Virus record (IMG/VR): IMGVR_UViG_3300038405_000130
Span: 1 to 54,370 of that record
DNA from: a virus
DNA: 54,370 nucleotides
Strand: one strand, 5' to 3'
Both the position numbers and the translations under genes were made by a program. Below, piece by piece: positions 11,152-41,795 of the stretch. Numbering within the stretch: the first letter of the stretch is position 1; each line of letters begins with the position of its first letter. The notes beneath the pieces are model-generated. The model did not search any database. It worked only from the letters and a program-made list of their open reading frames with translations, and was not told the DNA's origin.

Positions 11152-12033
11152 CTATCGGCGCCGTTGCTCGTCGTGGTAGTCGCACATGGTCATGAATGCA
11201 GCGTCAGCCGTTGCCGGACCGCTAGAGAAAGTCTCTTCTCGGGCCTGCCCACGAGACTTCCAGCCATTCTCTCGAATCTCCTTCGCCGTCCAGGCCAAAA
11301 ACTCGACGAGCGTGCACGTGTATGTTCCACGACTGCCCCGCCAGTCTTCAAGTTCAGCCTCGGAGAGACACGCGAGGGCGCTCGCCGAGAGTTCGACCTC
11401 GTTGATGCATGAAGCAACGTCCGTGCCGAGGAAGTCGCGAATGCAGGTCGAACCGACCTGAACGAGACGACCGTCCGACTCGTTCATGCACACGAACGTC
11501 TGCTTGCGCACCTGAGAACGTTTGCAGTGGTCGCAGGAGTTGTTTCGATGATGCCACTCGGTCGGAAGTACCACGCCCGGAACCGCTCGAACGATGGTGT
11601 TGTCCTCACCGAGCTCGTGGTCGAGCATCGCGGCGAAGGCCCAACCATTCAGCTTGACAGTCTTGACCCCGATGAGCCGCACCTGATGGACGGTACGAAC
11701 CTGGCCGGTGTACGAGCGCTTGCTCTGCGGGTTTGGCGCGTCTGGCGCGAGCCTGGTCCAGGAATAGCACCAACCAAAGCCGCCCTCATCATCGGCACGA
11801 TACGAGTACTCGTACTCGTCGATGCCGCCGACGACTTCATAGGTCGGCGCCTCGACTCCGAGCTTCTTCGCTCGTCGGGCAAGCTTGGCGAAGTTCTCCT
11901 CGAGGCGCTCGAGGTTGAGGACGTTGTAGAGTTTCTCTTTCGGTCCTTCAACCATGGCCTCATCGACCACCGGCGGTTCGACCGTTGACGGTTCGACCGT
12001 TGACTGTTCGATGACTGCGTTGTTCTCGTGCAT
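11152..12033 (-). CDS. Phage hypothetical protein with C4 zinc-finger
   Basis: A 293-residue protein. An acidic N-terminal tail carries a short STVEP repeat. The middle contains a beta-rich segment (VRLIGVKTVKLNGWAF). A zinc site follows: NNSCDHCKRSQVRKQTFVCM and then a G-S-T-C-I-x-D-F segment, giving the CxxC...C...C arrangement typical of a widespread phage family in which a conserved C-x-x-D-F follows the finger. The C-terminus is Trp/Glu-rich. The role is unknown; nucleic-acid binding is plausible. The ATG at 12033 has no strong ribosome binding site, but the longer frame upstream would overlap the neighbouring membrane-protein gene and is Arg/Ser-rich. Confidence 0.65.
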   Translation of the reverse strand: MHENNAVIEQSTVEPSTVEPPVVDEAMVEGPKEKLYNVLNLERLEENFAKLARRAKKLGVEAPTYEVVGGIDEYEYSYRADDEGGFGWCYSWTRLAPDAPNPQSKRSYTGQVRTVHQVRLIGVKTVKLNGWAFAAMLDHELGEDNTIVRAVPGVVLPTEWHHRNNSCDHCKRSQVRKQTFVCMNESDGRLVQVGSTCIRDFLGTDVASCINEVELSASALACLSEAELEDWRGSRGTYTCTLVEFLAWTAKEIRENGWKSRGQAREETFSSGPATADAAFMTMCDYHDEQRRR

Positions 12034-12076
12034 GACCAAATTGTTTGGTCGTCGCCGTCGCGCTGTCCAGCGTCGG

Positions 12077-12358
12077 TCAAACCTTGTATGTCGGTGTGAC
12101 GAAAAGCAAGCGAAGGACGAAGATGCCGAAGAAGAGTGCGATGCCGGCTGCGATAGGACGCCCAAGGACGAGCGATAGCAGTAGGACGACGATGCCGGTC
12201 ACGAAAACGGTAGCGACGATAAGACCGACTGCGACGCAGAACAAGCCGAGAACCTTGGCCACGACGTGTATCGTACCGGAGACGACTGCCCAGACGAACG
12301 CCAGGACCGACTTGACGACCTGGGCGACGGGGCTGCGAGATTCTTTTACCTTGGGCAC
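12077..12358 (-). CDS. Small integral membrane protein
   Basis: A 93-residue protein made almost wholly of hydrophobic segments: about 15-45 (Val/Ala-rich), 40-65 (a Val/Leu/Ile-rich span ending at LGRP) and 68-90 (an Ala/Ile/Phe-rich span). Two to three transmembrane helices are likely, with a basic N-terminus. It starts at a GTG at 12358 with AGGTGA just upstream and overlaps the end of the preceding gene by 13 bases. It could be an inner-membrane phage protein of almost any kind; it is far from the lysis-like cassette, so I do not call it a holin. Confidence 0.6.
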   Translation of the reverse strand: MPKVKESRSPVAQVVKSVLAFVWAVVSGTIHVVAKVLGLFCVAVGLIVATVFVTGIVVLLLSLVLGRPIAAGIALFFGIFVLRLLFVTPTYKV

Positions 12359-12759
12359 GATTCACCTGGTCCATCAATTGTGATGTCGGCAGGAAACTCG
12401 TCAAGGACCTTCGCATCGAGTTCGTAGGCCGCAGCGATACCATCGATCGCGCTCCTCCAGTCTTCGACTGTGACCTCATCATGGATCATCTGAAGCTGAC
12501 CCACTAGTTCTCGGTGGCCTATCTCGCTAGCGATTATCTCGGTGGAATCTCTATTTCCGTTGAGCGGGTTTATTCGTGAACTGCCCCACAACACCCCTTC
12601 CATATCTGGGCGATACTTGTCGTCTGGAATCAGACAGCCGGCGGCGCACCTAAGCCCCTCCGGAGTACGATACATGCAGTTCCCTTCAACCATCGCCTTG
12701 CACTTCTGCGTGAGCATATGCCGAGCGACTTTGTCGAAAATCTCTTGTGGTGTCATCAT
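12346..12759 (-). CDS. Phage hypothetical protein with CAAGCLIPD motif
   Basis: A 137-residue protein. The N-terminus is helical (MTPQEIFDKVARHML). The signature is a Cys-rich turn, GLRCAAGCLIPDDKY, followed by MEG. This motif is frequent in short phage proteins of unknown function and resembles the Cys-rich turn of the protein encoded at 5776-6156. The C-terminus is acidic. The start is one of two consecutive ATGs at 12759 and 12756. It is the first gene of a minus-strand run that diverges from the Thg1 gene; a possible TTGACT-18-TACCAT promoter lies at 12767-12796, but this is weak. Confidence 0.65.
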   Translation of the reverse strand: MMTPQEIFDKVARHMLTQKCKAMVEGNCMYRTPEGLRCAAGCLIPDDKYRPDMEGVLWGSSRINPLNGNRDSTEIIASEIGHRELVGQLQMIHDEVTVEDWRSAIDGIAAAYELDAKVLDEFPADITIDGPGESCPR

Positions 12760-12835: not shown

Positions 12836-13713
12836 ATGCCGAATGCCGCAAGTCTAGAAGAACGAATGAAGCGGTACGAAGTGCAGACCGACGCGCATCT
12901 GATGTCGGGGCTGCCCGCCATCGCCCGCTTGGATGGACGTTCGTTTGGCGCGTTCACAAAGCATGCGAAGAAGCCGTTCAGCCAGGCGTTTCGAAATTGC
13001 ATGATTCGCATTGCGGAGCATCTCATCGAGGAAACTGGCGCCACCGTCGCGTACACGCAGTCGGACGAGATAACGCTTGCGTGGGTGCAGGAGTCGATGC
13101 GAAAGGCCGATACGCCTGAGTTCGTGTTCTTCAACGGGCGCGTGCAGAAGATGTGTTCAACGCTCGCCGCGATGGCGAGTGTGAAGCTGGCAAAGGAAGG
13201 GGAGGCTATGACGTCAGCAATGCGCGACCGTAGCGGTCTTGCCTGGCATCGCATGCCTGGCATCGCATGCCAACCTTCGATTGCCGAGTGTTCAACGTGC
13301 CGTCGCTCGAGGAGGCGTCGAACGTCTTCGTGTGGCGTCAACAGGATGCGATACGCAACTCAATCGAGATGGCCGCCCGTGCGCACTTCTCGCACAAGGA
13401 ATGCCTCAGCAAGACGTGCGCGCAGCTGCAGGAGATGCTGTTTCAGCGGAAAGGAATCAACTGGGCGCACTACGAGGACGACTTCAGGCGTGGTTCATTC
13501 GTTCGAAAGACCTACGTCGAGCGTCGATACGCGCCGGTCGAGATTGCAGACTTGCCACCGAAGCACGAGGCGCGTTCGAACCCCAACCTCGTAGTGCGTC
13601 GTCGTACATTCGTGACATCATCGTTTGAGGTCGCTCGTTTATGCAATCGGCAGGAGACGCTGTTCCTTGGTTTCTCGTCAGAGCCGGACTTCGAAGGCAT
13701 GTCACCAGTCTGA
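12836..13713 (+). pseudogene. tRNA-His guanylyltransferase (Thg1-like), frameshifted
   Basis: Two overlapping frames together encode a Thg1-type enzyme, which adds nucleotides in the 3'-5' direction to the 5' end of tRNA. Frame one holds LEERMKRYE, the metal-binding IARLDGRSF and YTQSDEI motifs. Frame two, from 13267, holds FDCRVFNVPS, WRQQDAIRNSI, a FSHKE segment and the KGINW...RRGSFV end. The break lies at an exact tandem copy of a 14-base unit at 13241-13268. Removing one copy joins the frames at WHRMPTFDC and gives a 287-residue protein of normal length, with all visible catalytic residues present. It lies on the opposite strand to its neighbours and is convergent with the reductase gene. 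Confidence 0.85.
13241..13268 (+). repeat. 14-bp tandem duplication inside Thg1 gene
   Basis: The unit GCCTGGCATCGCAT occurs twice without interruption and is followed by GCC, the start of a third copy. Because 14 is not a multiple of three, the extra copy shifts the reading frame. Each unit also contains the inner repeat GCAT. Slippage during replication, a mutation in the sampled phage, or an assembly error could produce it. Confidence 0.95.
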
Positions 13714-13717
13714 ACGT

Positions 13718-15913
13718 CTAGCCTTCGCACGCCGTGCACTCGTCCTTCGAGCGTGACGCCAAATCACCACGAAGAACTCCCTCAGTCCGAAGGTAGTAGA
13801 GCGTCTTCAGACCTTCCTTCCACGCTTCGACGTGGACCTCGTGGATGTACTTCGGTGACGAGTTCGCCGCAAAGAACAGGTTCACCGACTGAGCCTGGTC
13901 AACCCAGACTTGTCGCTGCACGGCCTGCCGAACGATGGCGTGCTGGTTAATCTCTCGCGCCGTTAGGAAGACCCGCTTCTCCTCATCACTAAGAATGCTC
14001 GAGTCGAGATGCTGAACGCTTCCCTGTTGTTCAACAATGGACCGCCAGAGCTCCTCAGTGTTGCGGTTTCGTGACTCGAGCAGGCGCTCGAGAGTTCGGT
14101 TGCGCCGTAGGAACGTGCCGTGCGCACCCTTGACCACGTACCGGTTTGCCGGCAATGGCTCGATGCTGGGTGAGTGCCCACCGGAGATTGCGGAGTTCGA
14201 GACCGTCGGTGCAATAGCGAGCAGGTGCGTGTTGCGCCGACCGAAGCCCCGGCACCATTCCGGTTCGCCCTCCTCCTTAGCCATCTCGACCGTGGCACGC
14301 TCTGCGCCATCTCGAATCGTCTTGAAGACCTTCGCGTTGAGCTGCATCGCGCCGAAGCTGTCGAAGGCGAGACCCTTCTCCTGAAGCAGTGTGTGCCAAC
14401 CAAGCGTGCCGATACCGATGGCCCGGCCCTTGATTGCGCTTCGTCGGGCCGGTTCCATGCCGGTCATCCCCTCAGAGCTGTCGATATACTCGTCAAGTAC
14501 GCCGTCGAGGAATCGTGCCGCGACTTCGGGCAGGTCCGTGTCTTTCCACTCGTCCCACCGCGTAAGGTTGAGCGAGCTGAGACAGCACACGAAGGTGTGG
14601 TCGACGTCGGTGTGGAGTGCGATCTCGCTGTTGCCGGTCATGAGGCCACAGGCTAGCGCGAACTTTCCCGTCGATGGGACCTTCGGACAGTAGACTTTGT
14701 GTGTACCTTCGAGCTTCTCGATACGTGCGATCCGGGACCAGTCTTCGAAGCTCGTGTGCGAAGCGCCGGCAGCAGTGCTAGCGAACGCGTGCTCCTCTAG
14801 CCACATGCCGGGCTGAAGGTCCTCGGCGAGCGTCTCACGGTACATCTCCTTGAGCGCTTCGGTCGGGTCGGACGTCGCGAACCATCGATGATTGCGCGTG
14901 CAGTCGACGTACTGGTCTTGTCCTCGAGCACGGTAGTGAATGCGTAGCAGCTCATCCTCGCCCTTGAGCTCGAATGAGTTGTTCAGAACCCACTCCTTAC
15001 CGTCCCAGATTTTGGCCTTCCGGCCGACGAGCTCATCGATGCGGACCGGCGAGTCGCAGAGCTCGACCATCGTAGCACCGGAGAGACAGCAAATGTTCGA
15101 GGTCTTAACGCTTAGGCCGTTCTTCTTGTAGCAGTCCGGATTCCGTTCGTTGATGTTGTCGGTGAAGATGAGATACGGCTCGCCGGTCTCAGCGCGGGTC
15201 TTGAGAATCTTCTGCCAGAGCAGTCGCTTCTCGCTACTGCCTTCGAGCATCGAGTGCATCCATTCATTCCCGATGCAGACGCCGTGGTTGAGGTTCAGGC
15301 AGCGACGGTTCATGTCGCCGGTCGGCCGACGAATGTCGAGGAATTCGTCGATGTCGCCGTGCTCAACTGGAAGGAACAGCGCACCAGCACCGCGCCGTGT
15401 CTTGCCTTGCTTTACGGACATGATGGCGGTGTCGTAGAGCTTGGCCCAGGGTATGACTCCTTCGGCGCTACCGTTGCCTGCGATCTCGGCTCCACGTCCA
15501 CGTAGGTCGCCGAGGTAGATTCCGACGCCGGCCCCGCGTTTAGTCAACAGCGCGAGCTCGTGGGCCTTTAGGAAGATGCTGTCGATACTATCACCACAAT
15601 GGATACTATCGCATGAGATGGGGAGCCCACGAGTCGTGCCCATGTTCGAAAGCACGGGGCTCGCCGGGCATAGCCAGTTGCGCCACATGTAGTCGAAGTA
15701 CTGCACCGTTCGTCGGTCCTCTTCGGCAGCCGTCGTTGACGCACCAACGGCGGCAGCTCTCGCGACTCGTGTGTACATTGCTCGAGGCGTCTCGCCTGGC
15801 AGCATGTAGTTCGGATGAATGGTCTTGAAACCCTCCTCCGTCATCCACGCGGGAGCTTCGTCGTCGCGCTTCAGCAGTTCAAGTGTGGCGCTATCGTCGT
15901 TCGAGTCGCTCAT
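13718..15913 (-). CDS. nrdA: Ribonucleotide reductase class I alpha subunit, intein-containing
   Basis: A 731-residue precursor; 578 residues remain after splicing. It reduces ribonucleotides together with the beta subunit encoded upstream. Visible landmarks are LPISC (C101, first active-site Cys), TSNIC (N273 and C275, the thiyl-radical Cys of SNLC-type motifs), then after the intein S-E (catalytic Glu) and VCCLSSLNL (second redox Cys). TLYYLRTEG carries the Tyr-Tyr radical relay, and the CTACEG end holds the thioredoxin-accessible Cys pair. There is no N-terminal ATP-cone, so allosteric activity control is probably absent. Residues 276-428 are a mini-intein. The ATG overlaps the previous stop (ATGA). 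This is a nucleotide-supply gene typical of large lytic phages. Confidence 0.93.
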   Translation of the reverse strand: MSDSNDDSATLELLKRDDEAPAWMTEEGFKTIHPNYMLPGETPRAMYTRVARAAAVGASTTAAEEDRRTVQYFDYMWRNWLCPASPVLSNMGTTRGLPISCDSIHCGDSIDSIFLKAHELALLTKRGAGVGIYLGDLRGRGAEIAGNGSAEGVIPWAKLYDTAIMSVKQGKTRRGAGALFLPVEHGDIDEFLDIRRPTGDMNRRCLNLNHGVCIGNEWMHSMLEGSSEKRLLWQKILKTRAETGEPYLIFTDNINERNPDCYKKNGLSVKTSNICCLSGATMVELCDSPVRIDELVGRKAKIWDGKEWVLNNSFELKGEDELLRIHYRARGQDQYVDCTRNHRWFATSDPTEALKEMYRETLAEDLQPGMWLEEHAFASTAAGASHTSFEDWSRIARIEKLEGTHKVYCPKVPSTGKFALACGLMTGNSEIALHTDVDHTFVCCLSSLNLTRWDEWKDTDLPEVAARFLDGVLDEYIDSSEGMTGMEPARRSAIKGRAIGIGTLGWHTLLQEKGLAFDSFGAMQLNAKVFKTIRDGAERATVEMAKEEGEPEWCRGFGRRNTHLLAIAPTVSNSAISGGHSPSIEPLPANRYVVKGAHGTFLRRNRTLERLLESRNRNTEELWRSIVEQQGSVQHLDSSILSDEEKRVFLTAREINQHAIVRQAVQRQVWVDQAQSVNLFFAANSSPKYIHEVHVEAWKEGLKTLYYLRTEGVLRGDLASRSKDECTACEG
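14630..15088 (-). mobile_element. Mini-intein in the reductase alpha subunit
   Basis: Residues 276-428 of the precursor (153 residues) do not belong to the reductase fold and interrupt SNIC/SEI. The insert starts with Cys (CLSGATMVEL, block A), has a block B-like CTRNHRWFA with the T-x-x-H pattern, a block F-like THKVYCPKV segment, and ends LMTGN before Ser+1. No endonuclease motif fits in this length, so it is a mini-intein. It sits directly after the catalytic thiyl-radical Cys. The usual penultimate His is Gly. Splicing is required for an active enzyme; it is inferred, not shown. Confidence 0.88.
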
Positions 15914-23051: not shown

Positions 23052-23666
23052 CTACAGAATACGGTCGAATGTCAATCCGACCACACCTCTTACGGTAATA
23101 ATGCTGGGCGTAGCGACGTCGATGGTCGCAACGGAGAAGGCCGCGTTCTCACCAGCGGCAAAGGATGGGATGGGGAAGGTGAAACGAAAGACCCCCTGGG
23201 CTATTGGTGAGGGTTGAGACGAAGGGGAGGAAAGCACTGTACCATCGCTCTTGTAGAGTGCCGCCGTAGCATTGGATAGACCCGTTACCTGCTGCCCGCC
23301 CTTCACCTCGACCCACGTATTCACGATGACCTGGTTGTTAGGTACGTCCAGCGTGTAGGATTGACGTACTGCCATCAGGTCAAGGCCAGCAGACTCCGCC
23401 GAGATGACCTCTAGATTTTCGGTGTCTGGAAAGTAAAACTCGGATAGGGTCGTATGCCCGGAGTCGTCGTAGATATCGTAGATGACGAAGTAGAATCCAG
23501 GAGACGACGGGGTCCATGTCGACTCATAGTAGCCGAGCGACACGAAAGAAAGTGGCACGGTCGCCGCCAGCGTTACTCCATTATACACGCGTGCCTGCGG
23601 GAAGACTCCAGGGTTGTAGTCTTCGAGCAGGATATGCAATGCGATGGGAGAGCCGACGACGAACAT
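23052..23666 (-). CDS. Beta-sandwich tail protein
   Basis: A 204-residue protein of two beta-sandwich-like halves. The first (residues 1-85) includes IALHILLEDYNPGVFP and YYESTWTPSSPGFYFVIYDIY, an immunoglobulin-like pattern common in tail adhesins. The second (from about 110) includes VIVNTWVEVKGGQQV and ends in VVGLTFDRIL. It begins with the ATG at 23666, 11 bases after the previous stop. A role in the tail tip or baseplate is inferred from fold and position. Confidence 0.55.
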   Translation of the reverse strand: MFVVGSPIALHILLEDYNPGVFPQARVYNGVTLAATVPLSFVSLGYYESTWTPSSPGFYFVIYDIYDDSGHTTLSEFYFPDTENLEVISAESAGLDLMAVRQSYTLDVPNNQVIVNTWVEVKGGQQVTGLSNATAALYKSDGTVLSSPSSQPSPIAQGVFRFTFPIPSFAAGENAAFSVATIDVATPSIITVRGVVGLTFDRIL

Positions 23667-37487: not shown

Positions 37488-40400
37488 TTAGCTCGGCCGA
37501 AGCTCTTCGTTGAGGATTCGGCTAACCTTTGTCGGACTGAGCGCAGCGCGAATCGCACTGGCCTTGTCTGTTGGACCTGCAACGCCGGAGTCAGCCATTC
37601 CGGGCGCGAGGGCGAGATTTCCACGTGAGAGGTCATGACGAAGCTCTGCGGCGCGCCGCATCGGCTCCTCCACCGGCACGAGCTGCTCCTCGGCGAAGAC
37701 CTGCGGAATGGCCGCGGCCTGCTTCGAGATGTCCTGCTCGACACTAATGAGATACTTGTCGTCGTATGACATGATCTCTGATGCTCGATGGATGAGATGT
37801 TCGACCTCTTCCTCGGCGCTCTCCGCCCAGGCTGCCTCCACCAGGTGAAGGCCCAACTGTTCGTCGACGCCTGTATACTGCATCTGTTGACCGGTCATCG
37901 CGCTGCGACCGATGGGACGCGGCACGGTAAGCGAGTCGAGCATCTTTGCCTTGAGTGGAGAGACCTCGATGTTCAGCTGCCCGCGCTTCGATGCGACCTT
38001 GAGCGCTCGTGCGAATCGGGATGCGTATGATTTCTCAAGCGCTTCCTTCTCCGCGTCGTGCTCCGTCTGCATGCGCTCCAGCTTGGATGCATGGAGCTTC
38101 GTCTGGCGCTCGAGAGCGGCCGTCAGCTCGGCGATTTTGGCCTGCACTGCCGGGTCCGCCAGGACGGTAGCAGTGCTGGCGGTCTTGGTCGCTGAGGCGG
38201 TTGCCGGAGTCGACGACGCCTCACCGACAGGCGGTGTCGGAGCAGGAGCCACGTCGGCCTTACGACCGCCGGGACCTACGCCGGCCTGACCGGCCATGTC
38301 GGAGGTGCCACCAGAGATAGCATCCTGCCGCACGGTGTACTTCGGCCGCTTCTCCTTGTTCACGTCTTCAGCGCCATCGGTCGCGTTCGTCTTCGGCGAA
38401 GCGACTTGAGCTTCGTCCTGCATGTCGGTGTCACGAGACTCGACGGAGTTGGTCGGCATCGGGCGCGACTCATTCGCGAACGTCTCCATGCCGCCCTCGG
38501 TAGCGCCGCCGACGACCGGAACGTCCTTGCCGGGCTCGTGCTGCTCGGTCGCGACGCTCATCGCGCCCTCGAGCGCACCGCCATCCGACATCGGGCGTCC
38601 GCCCTGGAAGTCGAACATCGCGCCCTCGACACTGTCCGCGAATCGCTTCGAGAACTCCGCCTTGTATTTGAGCGCCGTGCGCACGAGACCATCGCTCATG
38701 ACGGAATCGATGAGCTCGTTGCCGAACTTCAGCTTGTCCGCGTTCGACGCGAGTTTGGCGTTTGGAGCGCTAACCTTGCCGCTCTTCACCGAGAAAATCT
38801 CACCGCTCGGGGCGAGAAGCGTGGCACCGTCATCGAAGACGTCCACCTCAAAGTCGCCGTACACCGACGCGTACTTCTCTTCTTTCATGTCACTTCCTTC
38901 GTCTGCCGCCGCGTACGGCGATTCGTGTTCATCCTCGTCACCCTCGGCGTGCGAGTGCATGGCCTCATCACCCTCGCCAGGCGCTTCCGCACCGGGCGGT
39001 AGCATTCCGAACTCCTCGGGGCTCTGCTCGCTCTTGGCAGGATTCATCTCCTGCTGGGTGAGGTCCTCAATGGTCGTCGGTGCGCCTCCAGGTCCTTTCG
39101 GTCCGCCGGGCGCGCCAGGCATTCCGCCCGGTCCCGCAGGCGCACCGCCAGGACCGACGGCGGGAGCGTGATTCATCGGCATGCCGTTCTGGTCGAGGTG
39201 TAGCTGCACGCCGTCCGGAACAACCAGACTGACGTCGCTGGTGATGGGTAGATACTGAGCGCTCTTCGTAGCGCGAACGATGGCCTGGCTCAGCGAGTCG
39301 GCATGAACTTGTGCATACTCCACACTGTCTTGAGCGCTGATACGCAGAGTCTTCTGGAGTTCGTCGAACGAGGCCTGAACGCACAGGTGCTCGTCATCCC
39401 CGTTGATGCGGGCAATGTGGAATGTTTGAGATTGCGGAGAGCTCCCAGTAGAGAGCGCCGTCTTAGGCATTGATTGCTCCGATAGTCGAGCGAGCCTCGC
39501 CCAGTTGATGAGCTGCTCGGTCTCCTGTTCGAGGGATAGGTCGCCGTTGGCGGATGCCGCCTTCAGCAGCTCAATAGTGTGGGCCTTGGGGTCGGCCGGC
39601 TTGTGCACTCTGGAGTACTCTTCGAAGTCGACGCCCTGGCAATACTCGAATGCCTTGCGAATCTCGAAGCCGTCGCCCGCGCTAGTTCCCGGAATGCGAA
39701 GGTAGACGTCGATGAGACGTTGAAGGTTGCTCGGAACGGTCAGACCCGCAGTGCGTGCTAGCTTACGAACTTCTTCAGCAGTGATGCGCTTGAACTCGGA
39801 ACCGCTCTTGAGCCAGAGACTTCCCTTCGCGGCGCCGCGGATGTGCGTGCAGAAGTCTTGAACCGAACGTGCGACGTGGTCGCAAACGTTGCACACTGTC
39901 GACGAGCAGCTGCAACCCATGCTTCCGGCATTGAGAAGTCCTGCTTGAATTCCACGTATGAGCGCCGGGTCTTTCTTTGTATCGACCGCGACGAGAATCT
40001 CGATGTACTCGTCTTTGACTACCGAGCCACACTTCGAACAGTGCAGACCGCTGGGGTCTCGCTCCGTCGCCTCTGCCGTTCGGTGATTGCACGTAGGGCA
40101 GTGCTCAAGAGCAGGAGCGTCATCATTGTAGTGAGCATCGAGAATGACTCCGCGTGCGCGCCTAGGGTCGGATGAGTTGAACGTCGCGAGACCGTTGTTG
40201 ATCTGGTAAGAATGACTGCCTGAAATGGTCAAGTTGTAAACGGGTAGGTCATTCGGCACCGTCTCTACGGAAACGATCGGCACCAAGAGATGCTCGCCGC
40301 TATCGCGGACCTGATTCGCAGCCGTCAATGGAGGCCGCTCATCTGCTAGGGCCGCTTCGCCCCAAATAAGCCGTGCGAGCTTGGTTGCATACCACCCGTG

Positions 40401-41795
40401 AATTCGAATTTGATAGGCGGTATGCTTTCGAGTCTTGTTTGGCTTTTGAAGGCAGACCGTGGACGGAATGCCGATTTGATGTAGAAGAACACGAGCCTGG
40501 CTCGCAAGATGTGGTGACGTTGTCGTCAGAGCCCCGACGAACTGTGTGTACGCGTGGCTGTTCTGGTACATCGACCGAAAGAACTGAGAACCGTCGCCTC
40601 GAATCCAGCCCCGAAGGAGTTCGATCTTTAGGCCTTTAGGCCAGGACATTACCTCTCTAGAGAGGCGCTTCTCGGTCGAATATCGACCACCCTCAGAGAC
40701 AAACCACTTCTGAAGCTGCTCGCCCTTGGGATTCGAAGTTTGCACTGAGAACGTACCGCGGTTGAAATCTGGGACGGTCCTAGTCGCAACGCCAATCGAC
40801 GCACAGAGCTCCTGCACGTCCTTGCACCAAGTCTTCTCTTCGTGAAAGCCGAACGTGAAACTGGTCCATTTGGCGGTCGAGGCACAACCCTCAGCGGTGT
40901 AGTAGCCGAGAAGTCGGGCTTGAGCAGGTGTTACGTCGGTGGCCGACGTCTCGCTCGTTTGAGGAATGAATAGCCAGTCTCCAGGGCGAGCATCTCCAAT
41001 CGGAATGCGCTTAATTGGGTCGTAGTCCTTAGGTATACGACGAAGACCGCCGTTGCGCTTAGTCGACCCGTCGATAACTTTCAGGTCTGAATCGACGCGA
41101 CCCTGCTTGTAGTGATTGTGCTTGTACGCCCTGCCTGGATTGACGTCTTCTCCGCAGCCGCAGGCGCATTTGCGCGGCCAGGCCCAGACTGGAAACTCGT
41201 GATTCGAAGTGGCGAAGAAAGTGCCGTAGTTCTTCGTTCGAACTTTCGTTAGCGTGTCCGGAACGCCTTCGCACCAAGCCGCTTCGACCTTTTGCACCAT
41301 GCCGTTACGGTCGAGAACCTCATCGCCATCCTGAACAAGTTCAATTGACTTAGACGTTCCGTCTGCCATGACGACGGGCGTGCCTTCTCGAAAACAGCGA
41401 TGGTTTAGGTGATGAGGCTTGCCCTCGTACGTTAGGTAGACAGCCATCTTTCGCTGATGGTCGAAGCGGAGGAGCTCAGCCTTCGAGAACGCGTCGTGGT
41501 TGTCGTTCGGAACGTTGACGCTGTTTGCGCGGATGGCCTCGTAGATGTAGTCCGACGGATGCGGACTGATATCGTACTTGGTCGATGCCTCTCGGAGCTT
41601 GCCGGCGACGTCAATCTTGCGTGCGCCGTCGAGGTAGTACGACCTGCGCTGCGAGGCTTCAACAGCCGCACCGGTGAATCCGAGCTCGGCCGCGTTCGGC
41701 TCGTTTCGGGCGATGCGATGAAACTGCTGCCCGACGGCGTCAAAAGTCGCCGTCCCGACCGAGTCGAGATGCGGAAATGCGACCTTGTGAAACAT
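37488..41795 (-). CDS. Prohead protease/scaffold precursor with an endonuclease-containing intein
   Basis: A 1435-residue precursor; 1028 remain after splicing. The host protein starts with an amphipathic region and GARKIDVAGKLREAS, then HHLNHR, then (after the intein) SSDPRRARGVILDAHYND and a Cys-rich zinc-like domain (CPTCNHRTAE, SKCGS, then MGCSCSSTVCNVCDHVAR and FCTHI). This order of RARG-ILDA, EILVAVD and GCSC...CNVC is what I recall from T4-like prohead core proteases of large phages. A Pro/Gly/Glu-rich linker follows, then a coiled coil (LERQTKLHASKLERMQTEHD) typical of scaffolds. Location before the capsid fits. Catalytic residues are not certain. Intein at residues 134-540. Confidence 0.72.
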   Translation of the reverse strand: MFHKVAFPHLDSVGTATFDAVGQQFHRIARNEPNAAELGFTGAAVEASQRRSYYLDGARKIDVAGKLREASTKYDISPHPSDYIYEAIRANSVNVPNDNHDAFSKAELLRFDHQRKMAVYLTYEGKPHHLNHRCFREGTPVVMADGTSKSIELVQDGDEVLDRNGMVQKVEAAWCEGVPDTLTKVRTKNYGTFFATSNHEFPVWAWPRKCACGCGEDVNPGRAYKHNHYKQGRVDSDLKVIDGSTKRNGGLRRIPKDYDPIKRIPIGDARPGDWLFIPQTSETSATDVTPAQARLLGYYTAEGCASTAKWTSFTFGFHEEKTWCKDVQELCASIGVATRTVPDFNRGTFSVQTSNPKGEQLQKWFVSEGGRYSTEKRLSREVMSWPKGLKIELLRGWIRGDGSQFFRSMYQNSHAYTQFVGALTTTSPHLASQARVLLHQIGIPSTVCLQKPNKTRKHTAYQIRIHGWYATKLARLIWGEAALADERPPLTAANQVRDSGEHLLVPIVSVETVPNDLPVYNLTISGSHSYQINNGLATFNSSDPRRARGVILDAHYNDDAPALEHCPTCNHRTAEATERDPSGLHCSKCGSVVKDEYIEILVAVDTKKDPALIRGIQAGLLNAGSMGCSCSSTVCNVCDHVARSVQDFCTHIRGAAKGSLWLKSGSEFKRITAEEVRKLARTAGLTVPSNLQRLIDVYLRIPGTSAGDGFEIRKAFEYCQGVDFEEYSRVHKPADPKAHTIELLKAASANGDLSLEQETEQLINWARLARLSEQSMPKTALSTGSSPQSQTFHIARINGDDEHLCVQASFDELQKTLRISAQDSVEYAQVHADSLSQAIVRATKSAQYLPITSDVSLVVPDGVQLHLDQNGMPMNHAPAVGPGGAPAGPGGMPGAPGGPKGPGGAPTTIEDLTQQEMNPAKSEQSPEEFGMLPPGAEAPGEGDEAMHSHAEGDEDEHESPYAAADEGSDMKEEKYASVYGDFEVDVFDDGATLLAPSGEIFSVKSGKVSAPNAKLASNADKLKFGNELIDSVMSDGLVRTALKYKAEFSKRFADSVEGAMFDFQGGRPMSDGGALEGAMSVATEQHEPGKDVPVVGGATEGGMETFANESRPMPTNSVESRDTDMQDEAQVASPKTNATDGAEDVNKEKRPKYTVRQDAISGGTSDMAGQAGVGPGGRKADVAPAPTPPVGEASSTPATASATKTASTATVLADPAVQAKIAELTAALERQTKLHASKLERMQTEHDAEKEALEKSYASRFARALKVASKRGQLNIEVSPLKAKMLDSLTVPRPIGRSAMTGQQMQYTGVDEQLGLHLVEAAWAESAEEEVEHLIHRASEIMSYDDKYLISVEQDISKQAAAIPQVFAEEQLVPVEEPMRRAAELRHDLSRGNLALAPGMADSGVAGPTDKASAIRAALSPTKVSRILNEELRPS
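40176..41396 (-). mobile_element. Large intein with LAGLIDADG endonuclease
   Basis: Residues 134-540 (407 residues). It starts with Cys (CFREGTPVVMADG, block A), has block B-like ATSNHEFPVW, and a Cys-rich insert (CACGCGED). Two LAGLIDADG motifs follow: ARLLGYYTAEG (intein residues 160-170) and LLRGWIRGDG (260-269). It ends VYNLTISGSHSYQINNGLA then TFN, with Ser as the first C-extein residue. The usual penultimate His is Phe. It interrupts HLNHR/SSDPRRARG, a conserved part of the host protein. It is therefore probably active for both splicing and homing, but neither has been shown. Confidence 0.88.

Follow-up and report, generated by a model that had tools for sequence, protein, structure and literature searches.

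The locus and its surroundings

The window, by which we mean the whole stretch analysed, is a linear IMG/VR virus record of 54,370 bases. It encodes, away from the locus described here, portal, terminase, protease-type and major head proteins and is therefore derived from a tailed phage. The locus itself carries a gene for a Thg1-like protein (TLP) placed between a divergent gene upstream and a convergent gene for the large subunit of ribonucleotide reductase (NrdA) downstream (Table 1). No sigma-70-like promoter was detected on the + strand upstream of the TLP gene in a scan which covers this type of promoter only. Thg1 was not found near the NrdA gene of relatives; Myxococcus phage Mx1, which has NrdA/NrdB and little else in common with the window, has no Thg1.

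Table 1. Coordinates of the features discussed (window positions, except for the relative L145)
Feature	Coordinates	Strand	Evidence
Phage protein of unknown function (PHROG 17693), upstream of the TLP gene	12346..12759	-	PHROG match
N-terminal part of Thg1-like gene, frame 2	12836..13240	+	Start ATG 12836; Pfam PF04446, PHROG 4717
ORF readable from ATG 12836, 252 aa, last ~110 out of frame	12836..13594	+	ORF list, stop map
14-bp perfect tandem duplication (frameshift site)	13240-13271	+	TRF, repeat finder
C-terminal part of Thg1-like gene, frame 1	13267..13713	+	PHROG 4717, PDB 4kgk
NrdA, downstream of the TLP gene	13718..15913	-	PHROG 84 [7e-148]
Frameshifted Thg1 gene of L145	L145:6001-6782		Main frame ends after ~220 residues

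Three other features of the window deserve mention. NrdA contains an insert of ~153 amino acids between its TSNIC motif and SEIAL which, as judged by alignment, is absent from the Mx1 protein. The insert begins with Cys and ends with Gly-Asn before Ser, and in these respects it looks like a mini-intein; the 20 NCBIfam families which matched at E <= 0.01 include no intein model. A tandem array of ~15-bp units (CGGTTCGACCGTTGA) is found at 11963-12011 within a - strand ORF (11152-12165) and, the unit being a multiple of three, specifies a repeated STVEP peptide. Lastly, the 1435-aa protein encoded by the - strand at 37488-41795 may be a large fusion, since its match to a head maturation protease [PHROG 18299] is confined to its N-terminal part.

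A Thg1-like gene in two frames

The N-terminal part of the gene was identified through its matches to the Thg1 catalytic domain [PF04446, 1.3e-22, 80.6 bits against a cut-off of 29.2 bits] and to the tRNA-His guanylyltransferases of PHROG 4717 [3.5e-34]. The C-terminal part matches the same PHROG [2.2e-30], as well as the TLP of Bacillus thuringiensis (BtTLP) [1e-12], whose solved structure (4kgk) is likewise matched by the N-terminal part; its similarity to Thg1C [PF14413, 5e-4, 20.7 bits] falls below the 26.3-bit cut-off, although the PHROG and 4kgk matches extend over that region. The two parts occupy consecutive positions of the PHROG 4717 profile (3-120 and 128-212), and one intact phage protein, L162, shows 50% identity to the N half and 49% to the C half. 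Among the relatives found, none exceeds 48% identity to the window TLP. The frame of the N part stays open from its ATG as far as a stop at 13592-13594, while that of the C part, which is preceded by an in-frame stop at 13231, ends at 13711-13713.

What separates the two frames is a tract with a period of 14 and no mismatch, which reads TGCCTGGCATCGCA twice and then TGCC (TRF: 2.3 copies, 100% match, score 64). An earlier note on this DNA had placed GCCTGGCATCGCAT twice, head to tail, at 13241-13268, and these coordinates are right. It had also proposed that removal of one copy would restore a Thg1 of 287 residues; translation of the one-copy gene gave this protein, which can be aligned with phage homologues over its whole length. 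The tract is not due to chance, since a tandem run of at least 18 matches did not arise in any of 20 sequences of 54 kb simulated with an order-3 Markov model. Perfect non-triplet duplications whose unit measures at least 11 bp were encountered four times in 2.2 Mb of other, related viral loci.

The gene shares with the TLPs of phages and bacteria (PF04446/PF14413, PHROG 4717; BtTLP, 4kgk) the catalytic domain, a putative C-terminal domain and all of the catalytic and triphosphate-binding residues that were tested, and is a single gene if the tract is ignored. Unlike them it is not one uninterrupted ORF, the tract splitting it into two frames, and it is a lone + strand gene among - strand genes. 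Judged by its sequence it is a broken member of the Thg1/TLP family, and any working enzyme is only putative.

State of the gene on either side of the break

Residues E15, R31, D33, S76, D77, E78, K105, R146, R163 and M174 of the window protein, the equivalents of BtTLP E12, R28, D30, S74, D75, E76, K99, R131, R147 and M158, are all retained. The metal-binding D33, D77 and E78 (BtTLP D30/D75/E76) lie in the N part together with R31, S76 and K105, and the equivalents of BtTLP R131, R147 and M158 in the C part. The carboxylates of the metal site are thus present, as are the basic residues which bind triphosphate (R31, K105, R146 and R163). The equivalent of R16' is D19, at a position which is variable in the family.

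Conservation was assessed with 158 relatives, taken from viral contigs and genomes, at the 30 most conserved columns, each shared by at least 95% of them. The window protein departs from two in the N half (D49S and F118L) and from none in the C half; 16 relatives score equally badly or worse. By codon usage the Thg1 frame scores best of the six frames in each half, and the frame which ribosomes would enter after the tract has a negative score. From either half out to the ends of the gene, no other stop or break of frame occurs. On the conserved-column and codon tests gene decay was rejected. The extra stops and missing residues which would have spoken for an already inactive gene were looked for and are not there; conserved columns, codon usage and stops agree with the earlier note that the duplication alone breaks the gene. 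Because there is no second lesion the break would be recent on a substitution clock, which is one of the three readings that the note had offered. The protein has no close kin and its branch is long (1.53; the median is 0.5), which could also reflect some relaxed constraint preceding the duplication.

The tract falls within the most length-variable loop of the family. Among relatives this loop has a length of 18-59 residues, and in the one-copy form of the window protein it has 32. L162 was modelled with AlphaFold (mean pLDDT 91), and in the model the loop lies between a helix (95-115) and a strand (128-135), the latter carrying the arginine equivalent to R131. The readable product lacks the equivalents of R131 and R147 and everything beyond them. 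Both arginines have been associated with binding of the incoming nucleotide or with strict conservation (PMC3701042), and since they and all that follows are missing the 252-residue product should be inactive.

Origin and significance of the duplication

We consider it probable that the window records a recent, spontaneous 14-bp tandem duplication in the TLP gene of a tailed phage, which would have cost the gene its function and from which low-frequency reversion is possible. In the one-copy sequence TGCC stands at each end of the 14-bp unit. This is how sites of slipped-strand, that is microhomology-mediated, tandem duplication usually look; the process has been described, and this type of arrangement is the one expected for it (PMC13207564). 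At replication the nascent strand presumably slipped between the two TGCC microhomologies 14 bp apart, so that the unit was copied twice. No special element is needed, since 4-bp microhomology pairs at a spacing of 5-30 bp are common (148 per kb). With a shift of +14 ribosomes would leave the Thg1 frame at about residue 139, just ahead of the beta strand with the triphosphate-binding arginine, and would terminate at 13594 with an inactive product. The repeat itself would permit reversion by slippage at low frequency, as a by-product rather than as a demonstrated switch. The Thg1 gene of another viral relative, L145, is frameshifted too, the one other case among the relatives examined: its last ~50 conserved residues are in another frame, and the break, near the C-terminal end, shows no obvious duplication. 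Sporadic loss, or sequence error, thus occurs in the Thg1 family. The two-copy state is most likely a mutation in one phage lineage.

It is unlikely that the second copy arose in assembly or sequencing and that the phage itself carries a single copy, its gene being intact. Such an artefact would agree with a gene which is perfect apart from the tract and with the single record that covers the site. Viral contigs searched for the tract, in one or two copies, and for its left flank gave no match, and when NrdA, MCP and TerL were used to look for the corresponding site in relatives, none was found to cover the tract. Against an artefact, the tract of 32 bp is shorter than the usual short read, and an insertion of 14 bp is not typical of base-calling errors. 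Furthermore, IMG/VR record 3300039441_000116 (30,714 bp), which may not be independent, agrees with the window base for base over the 30.7 kb that they share (23657-54370, 100% identity); the two have their end base in common, and the shorter begins at 23657 and misses the tract. We infer that the metagenomic consensus represents a real molecule.

A selected phase-variable switch, by which members of the phage population would make the enzyme or not according to whether slippage leaves them one copy or two, is quite improbable. The duplication does break the frame, as in phase-variable genes of the duplication type, and intragenic tandem duplications do revert: pneumococcal capsule genes vary in phase in this way through reversible short duplications, according to the passages of PMC4022640 and PMC4243769 which cite Waite 2001/2003. 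The duplications of pneumococcal cap3A, cap8E and tts, and the microhomology-mediated ones of fission yeast, are short, perfect and two-copy like that of the window, with microhomology at the ends of the unit and a frameshifted ORF. By analogy reversion of the window tract is plausible, and any selected role would be hypothetical. Two copies of a 14-mer are moreover the minimal and least unstable form of such a repeat, no related Thg1 gene among those examined has a frameshift caused by duplication, and a mixture in the population is not visible. In a comparable case, with insertions of up to 9 bp, reversion reached ~1e-5 at most (PMC4022640). Slightly more doubtful is the idea that the duplication serves as a reversible on/off state of a phage tRNA-end-repair enzyme and is maintained as such, one- and two-copy genomes being mixed in the population, perhaps since only hosts which damage tRNA ends make the enzyme worth its cost.

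Recoding, by -1 frameshifting or by a 14-nt ribosomal bypass between identical codons, would make the enzyme full-length with 0-5 residues added, which a length-variable loop could tolerate; the tract folds into hairpins and offers identical codons 14 nt apart. Such codons, however, are a trivial consequence of any duplication, and use of such a site is not known from any relative. Recoding was rejected for want of a slippery site, there being no X XXY YYZ heptamer in the frame overlap (13225-13591), and we regard it as very improbable. Least credible of all is an enzyme assembled from the N part and a C part begun at ATG 13267: this codon lies exactly at the loop preceding the beta strand, but ~110 residues of the N product are out of frame, the relatives examined nearly all have a single ORF, and translation of the C half on its own was rejected as no ribosome-binding site (Shine-Dalgarno-like sequence) precedes the ATG.

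Thg1 in phages has already been reported, and the phage collection holds 116 records of it. The earlier note had suggested that a phage enzyme of this kind might repair host tRNAs cut as a defence. A cut in the anticodon loop requires end-healing and ligation. The known activity of TLPs is to restore missing 5' nucleotides (PMC3701042, PMC7824862), and since it acts at the 5' end, and no tRNA gene was found in the 54,370-base window, a function in countering defences that cut the anticodon finds no support. In jumbo phages Thg1, listed as a sporadic phage gene within an RNA repair set, has been proposed to restore tRNA 5' ends (PMC7824862). In contrast to that set, the window is a 54-kb fragment in which neither a tRNA gene nor another RNA-repair gene was recognised.

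If the duplication is a plain mutation, the phage TLP would be dispensable at least for a time, and annotators are warned against listing an active enzyme here. Were a stable mixture of the two states true, it would represent a rare instance of a phage gene for RNA repair that varies in phase, and one could then test directly under which circumstances such an enzyme is required.
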